Source of the DNA: Nitrospira sp.
GTDB taxonomy: Bacteria > UBA10199 > SBBF01
DNA: 36,132 nt
Reading direction: 5' to 3'
Assembly (NCBI GenBank): GCA_005240075.1
Contig: SBBF01000039.1
Span: 1 to 36,132 of the forward strand
In this document: in pieces, positions 18,388 through 34,366 of the stretch
How the letters are laid out: each line of letters begins with the position of its first letter
How positions within the stretch are numbered: position 1 is the stretch's first letter
Program-made: the position numbers and the translations under genes
The notes under the pieces: generated by a model
Database searches by the model: none
The model's input: the letters and a program-made list of their open reading frames with translations, nothing else
Told to the model about the DNA's origin: nothing

Positions 18388-18843
18388 TTAAGAAAAACCT
18401 ACTTCGGACATATCGAGTCCCAGTTCATTGTCATCCATCCCTGGTAAATTATCCCGTCCGTTAATGCCGGTCAGTTCGTTTCCGCCGATGTCCACGCCAT
18501 TATAGGTCAGACAATCAGCAATCAGTTTGTAATAGGGTCCGTCGTTGGCCGGGTTAGTGACGCAAGTATCGATAACCGAATCATCAAAATATTCGCAAGC
18601 GGCAAATGTGTCTCTGAGGGCTCCAAATTCAGAGGGATCCCGATAAACTGAAGCACCTCGAAGGGGGTTGGCCGCATGAGCCAATTTCCCAATCAGTAAA
18701 TCGAGCTCAAATTTTGTTTCAGCCAAATCAGGACAAGCGCTCAAAACGTCAACACGATCTTGAACCTCCGGGTTGCCCAAGTGCGGAGCCGCCGCCGTAA
18801 AACTCCCCGCTACTGATCTATTTGTTTTGTTTTCAATAGCCAT
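18388..18843 (-). CDS. Hypothetical protein behind a sigma-54-type promoter
   Basis: A 151-aa protein without signal peptide or membrane helix and without recognisable domain. It contains four Cys (ACPDL, ACEYF, DTCVT, DCLTY) and an acidic C-terminus. AAGGAG lies 6 nt before the ATG. Upstream on the same strand come a structured GC-rich leader element (18868-18942) and a -24/-12 promoter match (18963-18978), the same order as for the 646-aa gene at 25352. Nitrogen-limitation or other sigma-54 control is therefore likely but unproven. Confidence 0.68.
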   Translation of the reverse strand: MAIENKTNRSVAGSFTAAAPHLGNPEVQDRVDVLSACPDLAETKFELDLLIGKLAHAANPLRGASVYRDPSEFGALRDTFAACEYFDDSVIDTCVTNPANDGPYYKLIADCLTYNGVDIGGNELTGINGRDNLPGMDDNELGLDMSEVGFS

Positions 18844-18867
18844 AATAAACTCCTTACCTCATTAATA

Positions 18868-18942
18868 ATGGGGGCTTTGCCGCTGGCGCCCCCATACCCC
18901 CATTTGGCTCGTTCGCGCGGAATAAATCCGACGCTCACTCAC
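18868..18942 (-). repeat. Two-hairpin GC-rich element, copy 1 (leader of 151-aa gene)
   Basis: Read on the minus strand: GTGAGTGAGC, a small CGGA/TCCG hairpin, GCGCGAACG, ATGGGGGTAT, then a hairpin GGGGGC/GCCCCC with AGCGGCA in its loop. It lies in the 5' leader between the sigma-54-type promoter and the start codon. A 24-bp block (GGGGGCGCCAGCGGCAAAGC plus CCCC) is identical to the copy inside rlmE. Confidence 0.75.
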
Positions 18943-18962: not shown

Positions 18963-18978
18963 TGCAAAAACTCTGCCA
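18963..18978 (-). promoter_or_regulatory. Sigma-54 (-24/-12) promoter candidate
   Basis: On the minus strand: TGGCAGA, GTTT, TTGCA. The invariant GG and GC are separated by exactly 10 nt, as required for RpoN promoters. It lies 120 nt upstream of the 151-aa gene. It matches the consensus less fully than the site at 25142. Confidence 0.6.
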
Positions 18979-19030
18979 AATATAAGCCCGATTCTATATT
19001 TATAACTAATTGATTTTATTATATTTTTAT

Positions 19031-19110: not shown

Positions 19111-19776
19111 ATGATTTTCTACAACCGCAAGGATATTTTTTACCAAAAAGCCAAAAAAGAGGGTTTTGTCGCCCGATCAGCCTATAAACTGATCGAACTG
19201 GATAAGAGGTTTGAGATCTTAAAACCGGGGAGAAGAATTGTCGATTTGGGATGCGCCCCGGGGGGGTGGATTCAGGTAGCGGAGGGGAAATTGGCAAGAA
19301 TTGTTGGGATCGACCTCCTCCCCCTCAAGTTCACCCCCTCCTCCAACACCCTCTTCTTCCAGGGAAATTTTTTGGATCCCGTTAATCAACAAAAAATCAT
19401 CGATGCACTGCAGGAAAATGGTGAGCGAGGATCAGGCTTTGCCAGTCCGAGCGAACGGGGGGTACGGGGGCGCCAGCGGCAAAGCCCCCGATCTAATGCC
19501 GATTGGGTCTTGTCCGACATGTCTCCCAATTTATCCGGCATCAAATTCAAGGATCTCCAGGCCTCTTTGGAGTTGTGCGAATCAGCCTTGGAATTTGCAA
19601 AAAAGATTTTAAAAAAGGGGGGAGGACTGGTGGTTAAAATTTTTCCGGGACCGGAGATGGAGAATTTTCGAAAGAGGCTTCGCGAGCTCTTCGAGCGAAT
19701 GGCCATGGTGGAACCAGAGGCGACACGGAAGACGTCGGCGGAGATCTATCTCGTTTGCACCGGGTTTAAAGGGTAA
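19111..19776 (+). CDS. rlmE: 23S rRNA 2'-O-methyltransferase RlmE (FtsJ) with an in-frame repeat insert
   Basis: A 221-aa FtsJ-family enzyme that methylates U2552 in E. coli 23S rRNA. The catalytic K-D-K-E set is visible: RSAYKL, SDMSPNLSG, VVKIFPGPE and SAEIYL. The SAM motif is VDLGCAPGGW. Residues about 104-129 (ERGSGFASPSERGVRGRQRQ and on) are encoded by the GC-rich two-hairpin element and do not match the family, where the preceding helix runs directly into the DWVLSDMSP strand. The frame is preserved, so the enzyme probably tolerates the loop. No ribosome site is obvious before the ATG. Confidence 0.92.
   Translation: MIFYNRKDIFYQKAKKEGFVARSAYKLIELDKRFEILKPGRRIVDLGCAPGGWIQVAEGKLARIVGIDLLPLKFTPSSNTLFFQGNFLDPVNQQKIIDALQENGERGSGFASPSERGVRGRQRQSPRSNADWVLSDMSPNLSGIKFKDLQASLELCESALEFAKKILKKGGGLVVKIFPGPEMENFRKRLRELFERMAMVEPEATRKTSAEIYLVCTGFKG
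19421..19490 (+). repeat. Two-hairpin GC-rich element, copy 2 (inside rlmE)
   Basis: GTGAGCGAG, a GGCTTTGCC hairpin flanked by GGA/TCC, GAGCGAACG (19449-19457), GGGGGGTAC, then the GGGGGC ... AGCGGCA ... GCCCCC hairpin. Same order and same orientation relative to the host gene as copies at 18868 and 25207. It is translated as part of RlmE. Confidence 0.75.
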
Positions 19777-19784
19777 AAATACTA

Positions 19785-19820
19785 TTTCCATAAATTATCA
19801 ATTTTGATAATCTATGGAAA
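19785..19820. promoter_or_regulatory. 36-bp symmetric operator overlapping the AbiEi start codon
   Basis: TTTCCAT (19785-19791) and ATTATCAA (19794-19801) mirror TTGATAAT (19804-19811) and ATGGAAA (19814-19820) around a central TT. All 15 paired positions match. The last arm contains the start codon of the antitoxin gene. AbiEi proteins are known to repress their own promoter by binding inverted repeats, so this is a strong operator candidate. Confidence 0.75.
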
Positions 19821-20437
19821 TGGATTATAATACTCTTATTACCCAAGCGGCCCCCTTTCCTCTTTTTGATGAATCGTTGCTGAGTGTTCTTGGGGGTTCA
19901 AAACAGGCTCACCGGCTCAGCCTGACCCGATGGGTGAAAAGCGGAAAAATTATTCGCTTGAAACGGGGCCTCTATACGCTCCCCGATGATCGGCGCAAAA
20001 TCCAGTTTTCAGTCATGTGGCTGGCCAACACCCTCTATTCACCATCATACGTATCACTTCAATTTGCCCTTTCGTGGCACGATATGATTCCGGAAAGGGT
20101 ATTGGCCATCACCTCAATTTCAAGACTCAAAACTGCCCGCTTTTCAAACCCTATGGGAATTTTTACTTACAGCCATCTCAATAAAGGTTTGTTTTTCGGA
20201 TTTCAGGAAAAAAGAGACGAATTTGAAAAATATTTTCTGATGGCCACTCCCGAAAAAGCGTTGCTTGACGTTATTTACTTGAGTCGTGATTGGGAGCCAA
20301 ACGCTGTTTTTTTGGAAAAGAACTGGCGCCTGCAACAGTTGGAGCAGTTAAATAAAAAACGATTGAAATCTTTTGCTGTAAAATTCCGGATGAAAAAAAT
20401 CACCAATGCCGTTGATCTCATTCTTAAACTCATTTAG
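19814..20437 (+). CDS. abiEi: AbiEi-type antitoxin / transcriptional regulator
   Basis: A 207-aa protein with an N-terminal winged-helix region (HRLSLTRWVKSGKIIRLKRG then LYTLP) typical of AbiEi antitoxins and a C-terminal AbiEi domain (SPSYVSLQFALSWHDMIPE; ATPEKALLDVIYL). In type IV toxin-antitoxin systems it represses the operon and counters the nucleotidyltransferase toxin without binding it. The start codon lies within a 36-bp palindrome. It is followed 12 bp later by the toxin gene. Confidence 0.9.
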   Translation: MEMDYNTLITQAAPFPLFDESLLSVLGGSKQAHRLSLTRWVKSGKIIRLKRGLYTLPDDRRKIQFSVMWLANTLYSPSYVSLQFALSWHDMIPERVLAITSISRLKTARFSNPMGIFTYSHLNKGLFFGFQEKRDEFEKYFLMATPEKALLDVIYLSRDWEPNAVFLEKNWRLQQLEQLNKKRLKSFAVKFRMKKITNAVDLILKLI

Positions 20438-20449
20438 GGAGACAAACTT

Positions 20450-21283
20450 ATGAAAGAAAATATGATTGCCAAAGCACGGGAGGGAAAAAGCGCGATCGAC
20501 AAGTTAAACCGGCTCCGCGAGGAATTGCATCATCTGATTCTTCAGGAAGCAGACCGAAAAGGGGCTTTTAATCAGATCTGTTTTGTGGGAGGAACGGCTC
20601 TGCGTATTTTGCACGGTCTTGACCGTTTTTCGGAGGATCTTGATTTTTCCCTTTCCCTTCAAAACAAAAACCTCTTTCAACTGGAAACTCTCTCAAAGGC
20701 TGTTGTCAAATCGCTGGAGGGATATGGCTTTGACTGTCATATTGAAAGACTTAAGACTGAGCGGAATGTGCAAAGCTGTTTGTTTGCCTTTAGGAATCTT
20801 CTGCATCAGCTCCACAAATCGTTTCAGCCAACACAAAAGCTGGCTATCCGTTTCGAAGCGGATATGCGCCCTCCAGCAGGGGCCCATGAACAGGTTAGTC
20901 CGGTAACCGGCATTCGTTTATACAAAGTACGCCATTTCGATCTCCCCTCGCTGTTTGCGGGGAAGTTGCATGCCGTTCTCTACCGCGTTTACACGAAGGG
21001 GAGAGATCTGTACGATTTCCTCTGGTATACGGGAAAGGGGGTGTCGGTTAACGGAACTTTTTTGGAAAATGCCATCGAGCAGACGCAAAAAGAAAAAATT
21101 CAGCTCAATGATAAAAAACTCCAAGAACTTCTGCACAAAAAATTTGAAGAGATTGATTTTGCCAAAGCCCAAAGGGATGTGGCACCTTTTCTGGCTGATC
21201 CGGAGTCCCTCTCCCTGTTTGATCGGGATCTTTTTTTAAATGCCGCAAATGGTGTAAAATTTTCAGAAACTGTTAAAAAGTGA
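20450..21283 (+). CDS. abiEii: AbiEii-type nucleotidyltransferase toxin
   Basis: A 277-aa protein of the AbiEii/AbiGii family (DUF1814, DNA polymerase beta-like fold). The signature FVGGTALRILHGLDRFSEDLDFSL (in part GGTALR and SEDLDF) holds the nucleotide-binding Gly-Gly and catalytic Asp pair. A second family motif, KLHAVLYRVYTKGRDLYDF, is present. Such toxins transfer nucleotides to RNA and can block phage growth. GGGAG precedes the ATG. Coupled to abiEi. Confidence 0.92.
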   Translation: MKENMIAKAREGKSAIDKLNRLREELHHLILQEADRKGAFNQICFVGGTALRILHGLDRFSEDLDFSLSLQNKNLFQLETLSKAVVKSLEGYGFDCHIERLKTERNVQSCLFAFRNLLHQLHKSFQPTQKLAIRFEADMRPPAGAHEQVSPVTGIRLYKVRHFDLPSLFAGKLHAVLYRVYTKGRDLYDFLWYTGKGVSVNGTFLENAIEQTQKEKIQLNDKKLQELLHKKFEEIDFAKAQRDVAPFLADPESLSLFDRDLFLNAANGVKFSETVKK

Positions 21284-25351: not shown

Positions 25352-27292
25352 ATGTCTGATGGAGTATCCAACGATTATATCGAGAGTTTGGGAATGTCGG
25401 CCGAGGATTATGCGAAGCTTTCCGATGACGAACAACAGGCGGCGATTGATTCTTATGTAGACAGCCTGGAAGCGGAAGGAAAATCAGCTGAAGAGATTGA
25501 GGAACAACTATCCGAGCTTAAGGCCGATCTGGAAGCAATTGCAGACATGTATGATGAATACGCGGAAGAGCTGGAAGATTTGGAAACCGGCGACATGAGT
25601 GATTCGGAAAAGGAGAATGTGGAGGAATTGATTGAGACATGCGAAAACATCATCGAAGAAATGAATGAAGGGGAAGAAAGAGTGGATGACGGCTACGACA
25701 ATTATGTGGCCCACAACAAAAATTACGATAGCAATGAGTCGGCTTATGTTTCTGACTTGACCTACGACGGTCAAACCTATGTTTATGACATGAACGGCGG
25801 GGATGTTTATTATGAATCGGGAGACGCAACCCTGGTAAGCTACGATCCGTCCACCGGCACCATAGTCTTGAAAGTGACCAACCCCGATAATCCGGAAGAG
25901 TATTGTTATGTGGAAATCCGGACCCACAATACCTCCGATCCCTTTGCGAGCGGAGATGAAAGCGATGAGGATTATCTGAAAGAAGAAGGGGTCACCAACG
26001 ATGAGGGGGAAGTGATTCAGGATGTAAACGCGGATGGCTTTATGAACCAAGACGACATTGATGCCGCTCTGGAGGCCCGCGATGGTTCGACACTGGAAGA
26101 CGGCAAAACCCAGATTTATTTTTCCAGCGGGATTTCGTCCGATGATCTGGAAACGATGAAAACGACCTGGCCCAACGATCTCCTCAAAATGTGCTATTGG
26201 GGAGATTCAACAAAATCGTTTTATGAGGAATTGTATGAAACTGACGATGAAGAAGAAAGTAATCTGGGAGTTATCGAAGGGTACAGCGATGCCGTCAGTG
26301 GATTGACTTCTTCCAGCGTTTCTTCTTACACAGATGGAAGCCTGGGTGAACTGCAGGACGAAGCAGAGGCGGCCCTGGAAACGCTCTTTGGCTACCTGGA
26401 TGATCCGAGTCAGGATTTGACCGACGTATGGGGCGAAATTTTTGAGCAGTGGGCCGGCTTGAGCGATGATGAAAAAGCACTGCTTTTGCAATACATGACC
26501 GTCACCGTGGCCCTGAATGCTAAGGATCATTTTGCCACCCTTTTTGGACCGATGGTTTCGACTATTGAAGAGATGCTTCATGGTTCCACACCGGATGATT
26601 ACAGCGTGAATGACAAAGTGATCATACTCTTGCTGGAAACTCAGGCAGGGGTTGGAAAATATGGCGGAGCCACAGCGGTATGGACAACGGCCATGTCCCC
26701 TGATGGTACTACTGATGGTAAATGGTCTGATAACGAGGAAAATGTGGAAGCCATTGGATTGTATCAGGAGCTGATTGGTCTGATGGGAGGAGTGCCAACC
26801 GGTTATGAAAGCGATACGATGGATCGGGAGGAAGCGCTCACCGAGGGAGAAGCTGAAACTGAAGAAGCGGGAGGAACTGTGACTGACGATATTTGGAATT
26901 ATTCTTCAGTCTATGGCCAAGTTGGGAACTATGGCGATACGTATGCCAATGATATGGATTGGACTGATGGAGTTGATGATCAAATTCTAACAAGCAATCT
27001 GACAACCCTCGTTAACGGTATTGAAAACTTGTTGTCGGACGGGGAAGCGACTGTTGAAGAAATTGTAAACTATATCATTTCCACCATTGGTTCACTCCCT
27101 GCTAACCAGCAGGATGATACAGCAACCGCTCTTTGCGCTCTTCTTCATGACAAAGCCAATGATCTGTTCAAGAAACTTAAAGCCAACGATGATTTTGTGG
27201 GGTACATGGATGGTTTGATCAATAACCGGAACAATAATCCTCACAATTATAAGCAAGTGAGAGAATGGCTGGGCTTGAGCGGAAAAAATTAA
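25352..27292 (+). CDS. Large acidic protein with EF-hand/dockerin-like loop
   Basis: A 646-aa very acidic protein of unknown function with AGGAGG 6-7 nt before the ATG. Residues about 35-115 are a Glu-rich helical, probably coiled-coil region. Residues 224-235 (DVNADGFMNQDD) fit a 12-residue calcium-binding loop (D1, N3, D5, N9, D12) as in EF-hands and dockerins. The rest is Asp/Glu/Thr/Ser-rich with helical segments at 330-420 and near the C-terminus. There is no Sec signal or membrane helix. Expression depends on a sigma-54-type promoter with a structured leader. A calcium-responsive or surface/secreted role is speculation. Its 3' end overlaps truA by 4 bp, convergent. Confidence 0.75.
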   Translation: MSDGVSNDYIESLGMSAEDYAKLSDDEQQAAIDSYVDSLEAEGKSAEEIEEQLSELKADLEAIADMYDEYAEELEDLETGDMSDSEKENVEELIETCENIIEEMNEGEERVDDGYDNYVAHNKNYDSNESAYVSDLTYDGQTYVYDMNGGDVYYESGDATLVSYDPSTGTIVLKVTNPDNPEEYCYVEIRTHNTSDPFASGDESDEDYLKEEGVTNDEGEVIQDVNADGFMNQDDIDAALEARDGSTLEDGKTQIYFSSGISSDDLETMKTTWPNDLLKMCYWGDSTKSFYEELYETDDEEESNLGVIEGYSDAVSGLTSSSVSSYTDGSLGELQDEAEAALETLFGYLDDPSQDLTDVWGEIFEQWAGLSDDEKALLLQYMTVTVALNAKDHFATLFGPMVSTIEEMLHGSTPDDYSVNDKVIILLLETQAGVGKYGGATAVWTTAMSPDGTTDGKWSDNEENVEAIGLYQELIGLMGGVPTGYESDTMDREEALTEGEAETEEAGGTVTDDIWNYSSVYGQVGNYGDTYANDMDWTDGVDDQILTSNLTTLVNGIENLLSDGEATVEEIVNYIISTIGSLPANQQDDTATALCALLHDKANDLFKKLKANDDFVGYMDGLINNRNNNPHNYKQVREWLGLSGKN

Positions 27293-28074
27293 CGATAAAT
27301 CACTCCCCTCAAAAACAACCCCTTGGCAGGAGCCGTCATTCCGGCCCTCCGGCGGTCTTGGCTTTTTAAAATTTTCTTGAATTGCATCAGAGTTGTTCTT
27401 CCCTTTCCCACATCCACCAGCGTCCCCACAATATTCCGGACCATTTGTTTCAAGAAACCGTTGCCGGTAACAGATATTTTTATCATGCGTAGGGGCGAAT
27501 CTTGTCTTCGCCCCATTAAATGGGCGAACATAAAGTTCGCCCCTACAGAAATTTTGACCCCATATATCCTCCTCACCGTCGTCTTGACCGAGCTCCCCGA
27601 CGCGCAAAAGGCCCTGAAATCATGTTCGCCAACAAGCAGGCGGGCCGCTTGTTTCATTCTGGCAATATCCAGTTTGTACGGCACCTGCCAGACAGTATCT
27701 TTGAGGAATGGGGAATGAATGGGGGAATTGAAAATAAAATAATCGTAGATTTTTTTCCGGACCGATTTTTGGGCATGAAAAGTCTCAGGAACAATTTGGA
27801 CATCGATGATAGCAATATCGGGGGGCAACAAGGAATTGAGTCCTAAAAATAATTTTTCGGGAATTGGAGAGTCAGATAAATCAAAATGACAGACCTGCCC
27901 CAAGGCATGAACACCGGCATCTGTTCGACCGGCGGCTACAACATGGATTTTCTGGTTTAAAATCCGGCTTAAGGTTTTCTCTAAAACTTCCTGAACAGAT
28001 AAACCGTTTGGTTGGGTTTGCCAGCCGTGGTAATTTGTTCCTTTGTATTGAAGAGTTAATTTAACTCGAGGCAA
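27289..28074 (-). CDS. truA: tRNA pseudouridine synthase TruA with an in-frame repeat insert
   Basis: A 261-aa TruA that makes pseudouridine at positions 38-40 of tRNA. The catalytic Asp is D52 in GRTDAGVHA; GNGFLKQMVRNIVGTL is the family C-terminal motif. Residues about 177-196 (VGANFMFAHLMGRRQDSPLR) come from a 58-bp palindromic element and are absent from the family, where the IYGVKIS strand is followed by a short turn before the ISVTGNGFL strand. The frame is intact. A TTG start overlaps the asd end by 14 nt. Confidence 0.94.
   Translation of the reverse strand: MPRVKLTLQYKGTNYHGWQTQPNGLSVQEVLEKTLSRILNQKIHVVAAGRTDAGVHALGQVCHFDLSDSPIPEKLFLGLNSLLPPDIAIIDVQIVPETFHAQKSVRKKIYDYFIFNSPIHSPFLKDTVWQVPYKLDIARMKQAARLLVGEHDFRAFCASGSSVKTTVRRIYGVKISVGANFMFAHLMGRRQDSPLRMIKISVTGNGFLKQMVRNIVGTLVDVGKGRTTLMQFKKILKSQDRRRAGMTAPAKGLFLRGVIYR
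27489..27546. repeat. 58-bp palindromic element inside truA
   Basis: Ends GTAGGGGCGAA and TTCGCCCCTAC are an 11-bp inverted repeat. Internally there are two nested palindromes (GGGGCGAA/TTCGCCCC and GGGCGAA/TTCGCCC). The element at 30639-30696 has the same length and a nearly identical right half. Confidence 0.85.
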
Positions 28075-30638: not shown

Positions 30639-30696
30639 GTAAGGGCGATCCTTGTGATCGCCCAAATAAACGGGCGAACATAAAGTTCGCCCCTAC
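30639..30696. repeat. 58-bp palindromic element between leuA and the Zn-ribbon gene
   Basis: It starts GTAAGGGCGATC, ends GTTCGCCCCTAC, and shares GGGCGAACATAAAGTTCGCC plus CCTAC exactly with the truA copy. It begins 2 bp from the leuA stop codon and ends 3 bp from the Zn-ribbon ATG, so it fills that gap completely. Confidence 0.85.
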
Positions 30697-30697
30697 A

Positions 30698-32233
30698 TTA
30701 TATCCCCCTCACTCCCTGACGCGCCTGATAATACTCTAATCTATTGATCGCCGACAAAAAGGCAATGGCCGAAGCCATGATAATATCGGTATGGGCGCCA
30801 CTCCCTCGAACTGTCTTTCCTTTGTCCGTCAGAGTCACAAACACTTCCCCTTGGGCATCGGTATCCCCCGTAATGGCTGTCACATGATACCGATCCAGAC
30901 TCCCCTCAAAGCCGGTAATCTTCCGCAACGCTTTAAATACCGCATCCACAGGGCCATCCCCCTGTTGAACATCCTTTTTTAAATTCCCTTCTGTCATCAC
31001 TTCCACAATCGCCTCGGGCGTTGTTCTGTTTCCACTGACCACATGCAACGATTCCAGACGAAACTTTTCCGTCTCCCCCATCCCCTGCCCTTCCACCAAA
31101 GCGATGATGTCTTCATCGTAAATATTTTTCTTTCGATCAGACAAATCCTTGAACGCGCTAAAGGCAGATTCCAAAGCAGACCCCTCCAACGGCATTCCCA
31201 AAGCCACCAGCCGATCACGAAACGCATGCCTGCCGGAATGTTTTCCCAAAACCAGGCGGTTTTTGGGCATCCCCACCGACTGGGGCGTCATGATTTCGTA
31301 AGTCAGTTCATGTTTCAAAACACCATCCTGATGAATTCCCGATTCATGGGCAAAAGCATTATCGCCGACAATCGCCTTGTTGGGTTGAACATTGATACCG
31401 GTAATATAAGAGAGAAGTTTGGAGGAAGGATAAATCTGTTCCGTCTTGACTCCCGTCACAAAGGTCATCTTGTCCTTGCGGACATTCAAGGTCATGACGA
31501 TTTCTTCCAGGGACGCATTGCCGGCCCTCTCTCCAATTCCATTGACGGTGCATTCCACCTGTCTCGCCCCCGCCTGAACCGCCGCCAGCGAATTGGCCAC
31601 AGCCAGCCCCAAATCATTGTGACAATGTACGCTCAACACAACACCAGAGGGCATTTTGAGTTTTGATTTCAAAAACGAAATGAGGTCAAAAAATTCGGAC
31701 GGAACCGTATAACCCACGGTATCCGGAACATTGAGCGTCGTCGCCCCGCAGTCAATGGCCACCTGAAACATTTTGGCCAGATAATCCCAATCGCTCCTCG
31801 TCGCATCCATGGCGGAAAACTCCACATCCTCGGCATGTTTTTTGGCAAGCCCTACCGCCATCTCTGTGTCTTTTAAAACTTCTTCACGGCTTTTCTTGAA
31901 CTGATATTTCAGGTGAATATCGGAGCTGGAAATAAACGTATGAATTCTCTTTTTTGTTGCAGGTACCAGCGCCTCGGCACAACGAATGATATCGCCGCTT
32001 GTTGCTCGGGCGAGTCCTGCAATGACCGGCCCACGCACCTCTTGGGCAATCCGGTGAACTGCATCAAAATCCCCCTGGGAGGCAATCGGAAAGCCAGCTT
32101 CGATGATATCCACATTCAGCTTGGCCAACTGATGCGCCATCCGGACTTTTTCTTCCAGCGTCATACTGCAACCGGGAGACTGTTCGCCGTCTCGCAGGGT
32201 CGTATCGAAGATTTTTATGTATTCAGTTGGCAT
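30698..32233 (-). CDS. leuA: 2-isopropylmalate synthase
   Basis: A 511-aa enzyme that commits 2-oxoisovalerate to leucine. N-terminal motifs FDTTLRDGEQSPG and LSVHCHNDLGLAVANSLAA (catalytic metal site) are present, followed by the C-terminal LeuA regulatory domain, which normally confers leucine feedback inhibition. The ATG at 32233 is chosen (GGGAG 8 nt upstream); it overlaps pssA by 11 nt. Confidence 0.96.
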   Translation of the reverse strand: MPTEYIKIFDTTLRDGEQSPGCSMTLEEKVRMAHQLAKLNVDIIEAGFPIASQGDFDAVHRIAQEVRGPVIAGLARATSGDIIRCAEALVPATKKRIHTFISSSDIHLKYQFKKSREEVLKDTEMAVGLAKKHAEDVEFSAMDATRSDWDYLAKMFQVAIDCGATTLNVPDTVGYTVPSEFFDLISFLKSKLKMPSGVVLSVHCHNDLGLAVANSLAAVQAGARQVECTVNGIGERAGNASLEEIVMTLNVRKDKMTFVTGVKTEQIYPSSKLLSYITGINVQPNKAIVGDNAFAHESGIHQDGVLKHELTYEIMTPQSVGMPKNRLVLGKHSGRHAFRDRLVALGMPLEGSALESAFSAFKDLSDRKKNIYDEDIIALVEGQGMGETEKFRLESLHVVSGNRTTPEAIVEVMTEGNLKKDVQQGDGPVDAVFKALRKITGFEGSLDRYHVTAITGDTDAQGEVFVTLTDKGKTVRGSGAHTDIIMASAIAFLSAINRLEYYQARQGVRGI

Positions 32234-33065
32234 TTTCTCTCCCAACAACCTTCAAAGTCCTCTCCGTTTCTTTCTTCTTCTCCTCCTCTTCCATCACCAG
32301 CTCTTCCGGCGCATCATGAAAAAAACGGGCCAGCAGGTCGGCAAAACTCCTGATTTTTTTGGGGGAATGAATCAGCCCCTCCACAACTCCCAACCCGACA
32401 TAAGTCACCGCCACGATAAAAATCATCACCTGGGGAGCGGAAGCAAGAATGAACAAAACCCCGACCAAAAGAACCAGCAGAAAAAAACTGGCCCGACGAT
32501 TAAGATCCAGCACCTTAAAACTGCGGTAAGGAATACTGCTGACCATGAGAAGAGCCAGAAACAAGGTCGAAATCAGCAACAAATAACTCTCCGGAACAGT
32601 ATTCCCGAAAACATGGTGATGAAAAATAACATAGCCAGCCACCGTGTAAGCCGCGCCGGGAATGGGGAGCCCCTGAAAACCCTTCTTTTCAACATTGGCA
32701 ACTTGCACATTGTAGCGGGCCAGTCTTAAAGCCCCGCAGGCAAAAAAGAGAAAGGCGACCGTCCAGCCGATCCGTTTGAACTGAAAAAGGACCCACATAT
32801 AAATCAACAGAGCGGGAGCCAGGCCAAACGAACACAAATCAACCAGAGAATCGTACTCCAGACCGAATTCACTTTGGCCCTTGGTAATCCGGGCTACCAG
32901 GCCGTCCAAAAAATCAAAAACGCCGGCAAACAGAATAGCCCAGGCCGCGGTGACATAATCGCCGTTGATCGCCCGGATGATGGAAAAAAAACCGCAAAAA
33001 AGATTGCCGGTTGTGAGCAGATTGGGAACAATGTAGACCCCTTTCTTTATTCCTCTTCTTTTCAT
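32223..33065 (-). CDS. pssA: CDP-diacylglycerol-serine O-phosphatidyltransferase
   Basis: A 280-aa integral membrane protein of the CDP-alcohol phosphatidyltransferase family making phosphatidylserine. The family motif DFLDGLVAR ... EFGLEYDSLVD (D-G-x2-A-R-x8-G-x3-D-x3-D type) is visible, with about eight membrane helices. The start at 33065 (MKRRGIKKGVYIVPNLLT) is chosen over longer reading because it overlaps psd by ATGA and begins just before the first conserved segment. The C-terminus is long and Glu/Lys-rich. Confidence 0.93.
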   Translation of the reverse strand: MKRRGIKKGVYIVPNLLTTGNLFCGFFSIIRAINGDYVTAAWAILFAGVFDFLDGLVARITKGQSEFGLEYDSLVDLCSFGLAPALLIYMWVLFQFKRIGWTVAFLFFACGALRLARYNVQVANVEKKGFQGLPIPGAAYTVAGYVIFHHHVFGNTVPESYLLLISTLFLALLMVSSIPYRSFKVLDLNRRASFFLLVLLVGVLFILASAPQVMIFIVAVTYVGLGVVEGLIHSPKKIRSFADLLARFFHDAPEELVMEEEEKKKETERTLKVVGRENAN

Positions 33066-34179: not shown

Positions 34180-34197
34180 TTTAATGGGGGCCCCTAG

Positions 34198-34322
34198 CCG
34201 AAGGCTCCCCTTCGGGGTCGGCCCGTTTGATGCTATTCGCATCCTTAATTATTGAGGGCCTCAGATGGCCCCAAACCCCGCACTCAGAACTGGTCCCGAA
34301 GGGATCCCTTTCCCTAAGGGAA
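34198..34322. repeat. Palindrome-rich stretch upstream of ilvN
   Basis: It contains CCGAAGG-CTCC-CCTTCGG (34198-34215), GGGATCCC, and TTCCCT-A-AGGGAA (34310-34322). No gene is seen in the 290 bp between ilvN and the decayed gene. The stretch may be remnants of several inserted palindromes within the ilvN leader. Confidence 0.5.
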
Positions 34323-34366
34323 GCCTTTGGCTCAGGACAAAGCCAGATTCTTCGCTTTACTTTTTA

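Follow-up and report, generated by a model that had tools for sequence, protein, structure and literature searches.

The window (the whole stretch of 36,132 nucleotides analyzed here) contains rlmE/ftsJ, which encodes a 23S rRNA uridine 2′-O-methyltransferase, and inside this gene lies a copy of a palindromic element that is dispersed through the genome (Table 1). A covariance model of the element, with 76 positions and 20 base pairs, was built from 19 copies in this genome (G000), the rlmE copy and a nearby leader copy among them; it matches positions 19421 through 19492 on the plus strand (87.7 bits, E = 2.9e-19). The right end of the rlmE copy probably lies near 19495, as an empty site in murI (described below) suggests. 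The element encodes RlmE residues ∼104 through 129 (Gly104 to about Asn129), giving ∼25 extra residues in a loop rich in Ser, Arg, and Gly between the SAM-binding half of the enzyme and the catalytic SDMSPN motif, as the first-pass annotation had read it. Because the element has no stop codon in the rlmE frame and the insertion contributes a multiple of three (75 or 78 nt, depending on the ancestral loop), the frame is kept. The two rlmE halves are in frame on one contig. The 5′ hairpin (P1) of this copy has a single A·A mismatch, and the underlying change is synonymous in rlmE (TCT to TCA, Ser). The leader copy and one long-form relative are the only other copies found in the window. An AbiEi/AbiEii-like toxin–antitoxin pair lies directly 3′ of rlmE.

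Table 1. Positions of the element copies, their neighbors, and other palindromes in the window
Feature	Position	Strand	Description
rlmE/ftsJ, 23S rRNA uridine 2′-O-methyltransferase	19111..19776	+	221 aa; Pfam FtsJ, E = 5.4e-50
In-frame element copy inside rlmE	19421..19495	+	GTGAGCG...CCCCCGATCTA, encodes about GERGSGFASPSERGVRGRQRQSPRS; covariance-model match, absent from 29 homologues; right end approximate
5′ hairpin P1 of the rlmE copy	19425..19455	+	AGCGAGGATCAGGC-TTT-GCCAGTCCGAGCGA; covariation counts
3′ hairpin P2 of the rlmE copy	19465..19490	+	CGGGGGC-GCC-AGC-GGC-AAA-GCCCCCG; covariation counts
Leader copy of the element, short form	18864..18942 (model match 18867-18942)	-	93.1 bits; 5′ of the 18388-18843 ORF
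Sigma-54-like -24/-12 motif	18963..18979	-	TTGGCAG-N5-TTGCA, upstream of the leader copy; spotted by eye
ORF downstream of the leader copy	18388..18843	-	151 aa; no Pfam match
Long-form copy of the element	34181..34359	-	Abuts the apparent ATG (∼34179) of an acetolactate-synthase small-subunit-like gene, named by sequence reading
AbiEi/AbiEii-like toxin–antitoxin pair	19814..21283		Directly 3′ of rlmE
truA	27289..28074	-	Contains an unrelated in-frame palindrome
Palindrome inside truA	27489..27547		GTAGGGGCGAA...TTCGCCCCTAC
GTAGGGGC-type palindrome	30639..30697		GTAAGGGCGA...; right after the stop of the 30698-32248 (-) ORF

In the folded element, GAGCGA/GAGCGA segments flank the base of the 5′ hairpin, and a G-rich linker leads on to the 3′ hairpin, the tip of which varies. 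The ends of the element read (R)TGAGCG and RAT-NTW, and its length ranges from 72 to 110 nt, the short form having 72 to 78 nt. Compensatory changes back this two-hairpin fold: 95% of cells are paired, both sides are changed in eight pairs, and the covariation score of 0.324 (0.154 ± 0.014 for shuffled data) is exceeded in 0 of 500 shuffles. At E ≤ 0.01 there are 59 copies in this genome, 58 in G001, and 10 in G002, the latter two representing sister genera. The covariance model detects the element in 22 of 60 genomes, all from one class and including other families of that class, and in 0 of 14 outgroups. A long form (∼110 nt) shares the first hairpin of the short form and has a larger second domain; it too covaries and folds better than shuffled sequences (z = −4.15), and at E ≤ 1e-5 it gives 52 matches in G000 and 59 in G001, some of which may overlap those of the short model. 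Neither form has an Rfam match above the gathering score, and a known RNA family was dropped as a candidate. Several copies (L001, L010, L011, and L023) carry a perfect extra hairpin, ATCCAGCACTCAAAAGCTTTTGAGTGCTGGAT, in the linker ahead of the second hairpin.

Comparison of RlmE proteins points to a lineage-specific arrival of the element. The insertion is missing from all 29 aligned homologues of related genomes, element-bearing sister genera included; the proteins of G001 and G002, which belong to the same family, are 71 to 83% identical to the window RlmE in the flanking halves and have no element insertion. This agrees with the lineage-specific arrival implied at first pass, and relatives with the loop in unrelated codons, which would mark an old protein feature, were not found among the 29. 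When RlmE is aligned with solved FtsJ-type structures, homology is lost after residue 99 and regained near residue 126. An AlphaFold2 model (window RlmE and four relatives in the alignment) has a mean pLDDT of 84.7 and a normal methyltransferase core, most of it above 85; residues 106 through 126 are predicted to be disordered (pLDDT < 50), between a helix (90 through 104) and a strand (130 through 135). In this model the insertion point is a loop where the fold tolerates a flexible addition, and we infer that the insert is translated and that RlmE is still active.

RlmE loops differ in length among relatives, as they might if an old, RlmE-specific loop resembled the element by chance. We regard such a resemblance as vanishingly improbable, given the score of the segment under the element model, its identity at 70 of 72 positions to a copy in another genus, and the lack of the loop in relatives. 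Alternatively, the segment might go untranslated, either skipped, as in translational bypass, or excised from the RNA. The rlmE segment is highly structured, and the bypass elements known are short, mobile hairpins; however, the verified intragenic copies keep the frame and have no stops, which neither bypass nor removal would need, and we consider either process very unlikely here.

The first-pass annotation had recognized the same element in rlmE and in the leader, and the covariance model confirms this, matching both copies (87.7 and 93.1 bits, respectively). It had also suggested that rlmE received its copy from this leader, 500 bp away, by movement or gene conversion. The two share an identical 24-nt block, GGGGGCGCCAGCGGCAAAGCCCCC, for which no occurrence is expected by chance in the window, and they show 90% complementarity over 42 nt within 0.6 kb. 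The block, however, is found exactly at six more places in the genome, eight in all, and at 23 places when up to three mismatches are allowed (reversed control pattern, 0); its identity in rlmE and the leader is therefore a property of the family and not a private link. Over its full length the rlmE copy matches the leader at 54 of 76 positions (71%), which ranks the leader 51st of 71 copies; several other copies in this species are closer, and two in G001 reach 70/72 (97%; G001:C27) and 69/72 (96%; G001:C32). The copies also differ in length (72 nt in rlmE and 76 nt in the leader) and in their first hairpins. Among the G000 copies examined, mostly 76 to 78 nt, that in rlmE is the only one of 72 nt, the usual length in G001. 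Conversion or local duplication from the leader was thus rejected on the full-length identity ranking, and we attach hardly any weight to it as the source of the rlmE copy.

Conserved genes other than rlmE also carry the element in frame. MurI of G002 aligns with the solved structure 1b73 over residues 6 through 176 and again over 227 through 309, against chain residues up to 170 and from 171 on, respectively. At the DNA level a sister genus provides the empty site: AACGGG|ATCGAC without the element corresponds to AATGGG-[GTGAGCG...GATTTA]-GTGGAT with it, an insertion of 147 nt with an ambiguity of only 3 nt. AtpG is likewise split by an in-frame copy, a Zn-dependent alcohol dehydrogenase is split by a copy in antisense orientation, and a PcrA/UvrD helicase has one in the linker before its Tudor domain; by ORF reading, a TPR/kinase/sigma-54 activator and a TPR membrane protein carry the element as well. 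In atpG (L108; G000:C105), two second hairpins surround one first hairpin and the peptide MGEASGQSP is repeated, an arrangement suggesting that the insertion was double or nested. Two sense frames of the element are open, and both are used; at least one antisense frame is open as well. As judged from these sequences, in-frame entry has occurred independently in several conserved genes, both here and in related genomes. The insertion count excludes spanning ORFs that lie upstream of real starts or are unsupported (e.g., L134 and L135). RnhB (L110) was also left out, since the element falls close to the N terminus and it is uncertain where the protein truly begins. ORFs, not a full annotation, supplied the gene starts, and the fraction of copies within genes is an approximation.

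Palindromes of other families also occur in frame. The one inside truA of the window is unrelated to the element, and the same TruA loop contains a further GTAGGGGC palindrome in G002 and one of the form CCCCCTT...AAGGGGG in G001. The GTAGGGGC-type palindrome at 30639..30697 of the window is 86% like the copy inside truA. RlmE of G002 (L026) and of G001 (L027) have in-frame palindromes in a different loop, before the I(I/V)GIDLL strand, of the GTAGGGGC type in G002 and of the CCCCCTT type in G001. A predicted thymidylate synthase (L118, from ∼1900; G001:C57) has an in-frame GTCATCCCGG...GGAATGAC repeat of ∼30 residues, which belongs to a further palindrome family.

The usual habitat of the element is directly 5′ of genes. 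A gene start lies within 60 nt on the 3′ side of 41 of 72 copies and on the 5′ side of 9 (sign test, 2.8e-6); an ATG begins exactly 3 nt past the model end in 27 of the 72, where 1.07 would be expected; and six tRNAs all lie 5 to 6 nt from the 3′ end of an element, in a single direction. NTWAT forms the right flank of nearly all G001 copies; the left flank shows no constraint. The long form lies directly 5′ of start codons (L188–L207 and L210–L239); by sequence reading, the genes that follow it are those for DnaK, HU, aspartokinase, DXR, TruB, and ribosomal protein L3. Several copies stand between cistrons, and in some, by eye, the TGA of the element itself closes the upstream ORF. The leader copy near rlmE has a sigma-54-like motif behind it, but the label “sigma-54 leader” used at first pass is too narrow for the family, many of whose copies adjoin start codons or tRNA genes that are unrelated in function.

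This fixed position before starts and tRNAs, together with the covariation and folding of the long form, could mean a host function and not pure mobility. The element would then be a regulatory RNA leader that the host maintains for intercistronic processing or translation initiation, that spreads by copying, and that enters genes such as rlmE by accident. We think this rather unlikely, although it is the strongest of the competing explanations. Against it, no insertion site is common to the 38 G000 copies and the 34 copies of G001 and G002 when neighboring genes are compared; the one clear shared neighbor across genera, rnhB, has the element on opposite sides. Moreover, the downstream genes have no common function, and some copies occur within genes, in sense or antisense direction. 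In two genes checked, the element-free orthologues begin at the same Met, and the start codon is therefore native in those two. Placement that is precise yet uninherited suggests, as far as these sequences can tell, either that the element is mobile and prefers certain targets or that selection after insertion has favored this place.

The search for a mobilizing partner covered nine genomes for Y1_Tnp. G000 and G001 each contain no more than a fragment of this gene, and neither G002 nor G018 has it; the latter genome is 98% complete and has 15 element copies. No element copy flanks the Y1 or reverse-transcriptase loci examined, and flanking RAYT genes were likewise not found in these draft assemblies, from which a partner may be missing. 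A RAYT or IS605 partner was thus set aside, the Y1 genes in the carriers examined being only fragments or unlinked, as was retro-copying, since RVT_1 is absent from G000, G001, and most carriers examined. A viral origin was dropped after no exact match to a P1 pattern was found in viral contigs, a weak negative, as the pattern fits only the TCCG variant of P1. A permutation test for target-site duplication gives z values of 3 to 4 in G001/G002 and nothing convincing in G000, and comparison of flanks with ends shows no consistent inverted match; a MITE with terminal inverted repeats was rejected for want of such repeats and because duplication is weak. All genomes are draft metagenome-assembled genomes (MAGs), and some contigs end in the element (e.g., L013 and L014), so local misassembly is possible, although the rlmE halves share one contig and one frame.

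Three known systems offer comparison. The Rickettsia palindromic elements (RPEs) are dispersed palindromes of up to about 150 nt, many of them in frame in unrelated conserved genes (PMC10969869, PMC3733652). The present element shares these traits, with its 59 genome copies (E ≤ 0.01) and its in-frame copies in RlmE, MurI, AtpG, the Zn-dependent alcohol dehydrogenase, and PcrA/UvrD. It differs in its hosts, a group of groundwater MAGs labeled “Deltaproteobacteria,” and in its two-hairpin, RNA-like fold with a variable apical domain and its position flush before starts and tRNAs; the two are set apart by lineage and fold, not by sequence comparison. REPs are short palindromes, mostly near the 3′ ends of upstream ORFs, and some lie within ORFs, including those for UvrD and a tRNA pseudouridine synthase; their ends can give a flanking ORF a stop (PMC3733652). 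The present element is likewise palindromic and found inside genes, PcrA/UvrD included. Whereas REPs have a GTAG/CGTC tag and a palindrome of 20 to 40 bp, it is tagless, 72 to 110 nt long, and made of two dissimilar hairpins; it stands on the 5′ side of downstream genes and has no RAYT found beside it. Nonautonomous elements derived from IS200/IS605 have two hairpins, no terminal inverted repeats, a short fixed target, and no clear duplication. Here, too, there are two unlike hairpins and no terminal repeats. In its insertion the present element may resemble this kind: the right flank is conserved and the left is not, an ATG stands at +3 in 27 of 72 copies, and the murI empty site has an ambiguity of 3 nt, but G001/G002 show a weak duplication signal. 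No Y1 transposase was found with element ends. The best reading of these sequence comparisons is that the element behaves like RPEs and intragenic REPs yet belongs to a different family.

We therefore propose, with a probability of roughly 0.8, that the rlmE segment is a nonautonomous, hairpin-forming mobile element that inserted after this genus split from its sister genera. A copy would have entered rlmE after that separation, adding an in-frame, stop-free 75 or 78 nt whose residues would land between the helix and the SDMSPN strand. Movement would be carried out by a protein that acts on the folded single strand and places the element directly 5′ of (N)TW-ATG; a putative candidate is an HUH-type transposase of the IS200/IS605 or RAYT kind. 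More tentatively, at less than even odds, the family may be a new mobile structured element that inserts right 5′ of start codons and mature tRNA ends, bringing a ready-made leader or processing signal, with the rlmE copy as an in-gene landing. If so, the element could give the upstream gene a stop without disturbing the downstream start, and two of its other frames would remain open, so that insertion between or within genes would be close to harmless.

Rickettsia and some REP-rich genomes are the best-known sources of in-frame palindromic insertions; the present case adds another lineage and another family. In this genome and its sister genera, different palindromes are found in RlmE, TruA, ThyA, and MurI, in some cases at the same loop, which implies that loops of housekeeping enzymes have been extended repeatedly. 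The resulting natural pairs of enzymes with and without an insertion allow the cost of such insertions to be asked, and the fixed place of the element before start codons makes the mechanism of targeting directly testable.
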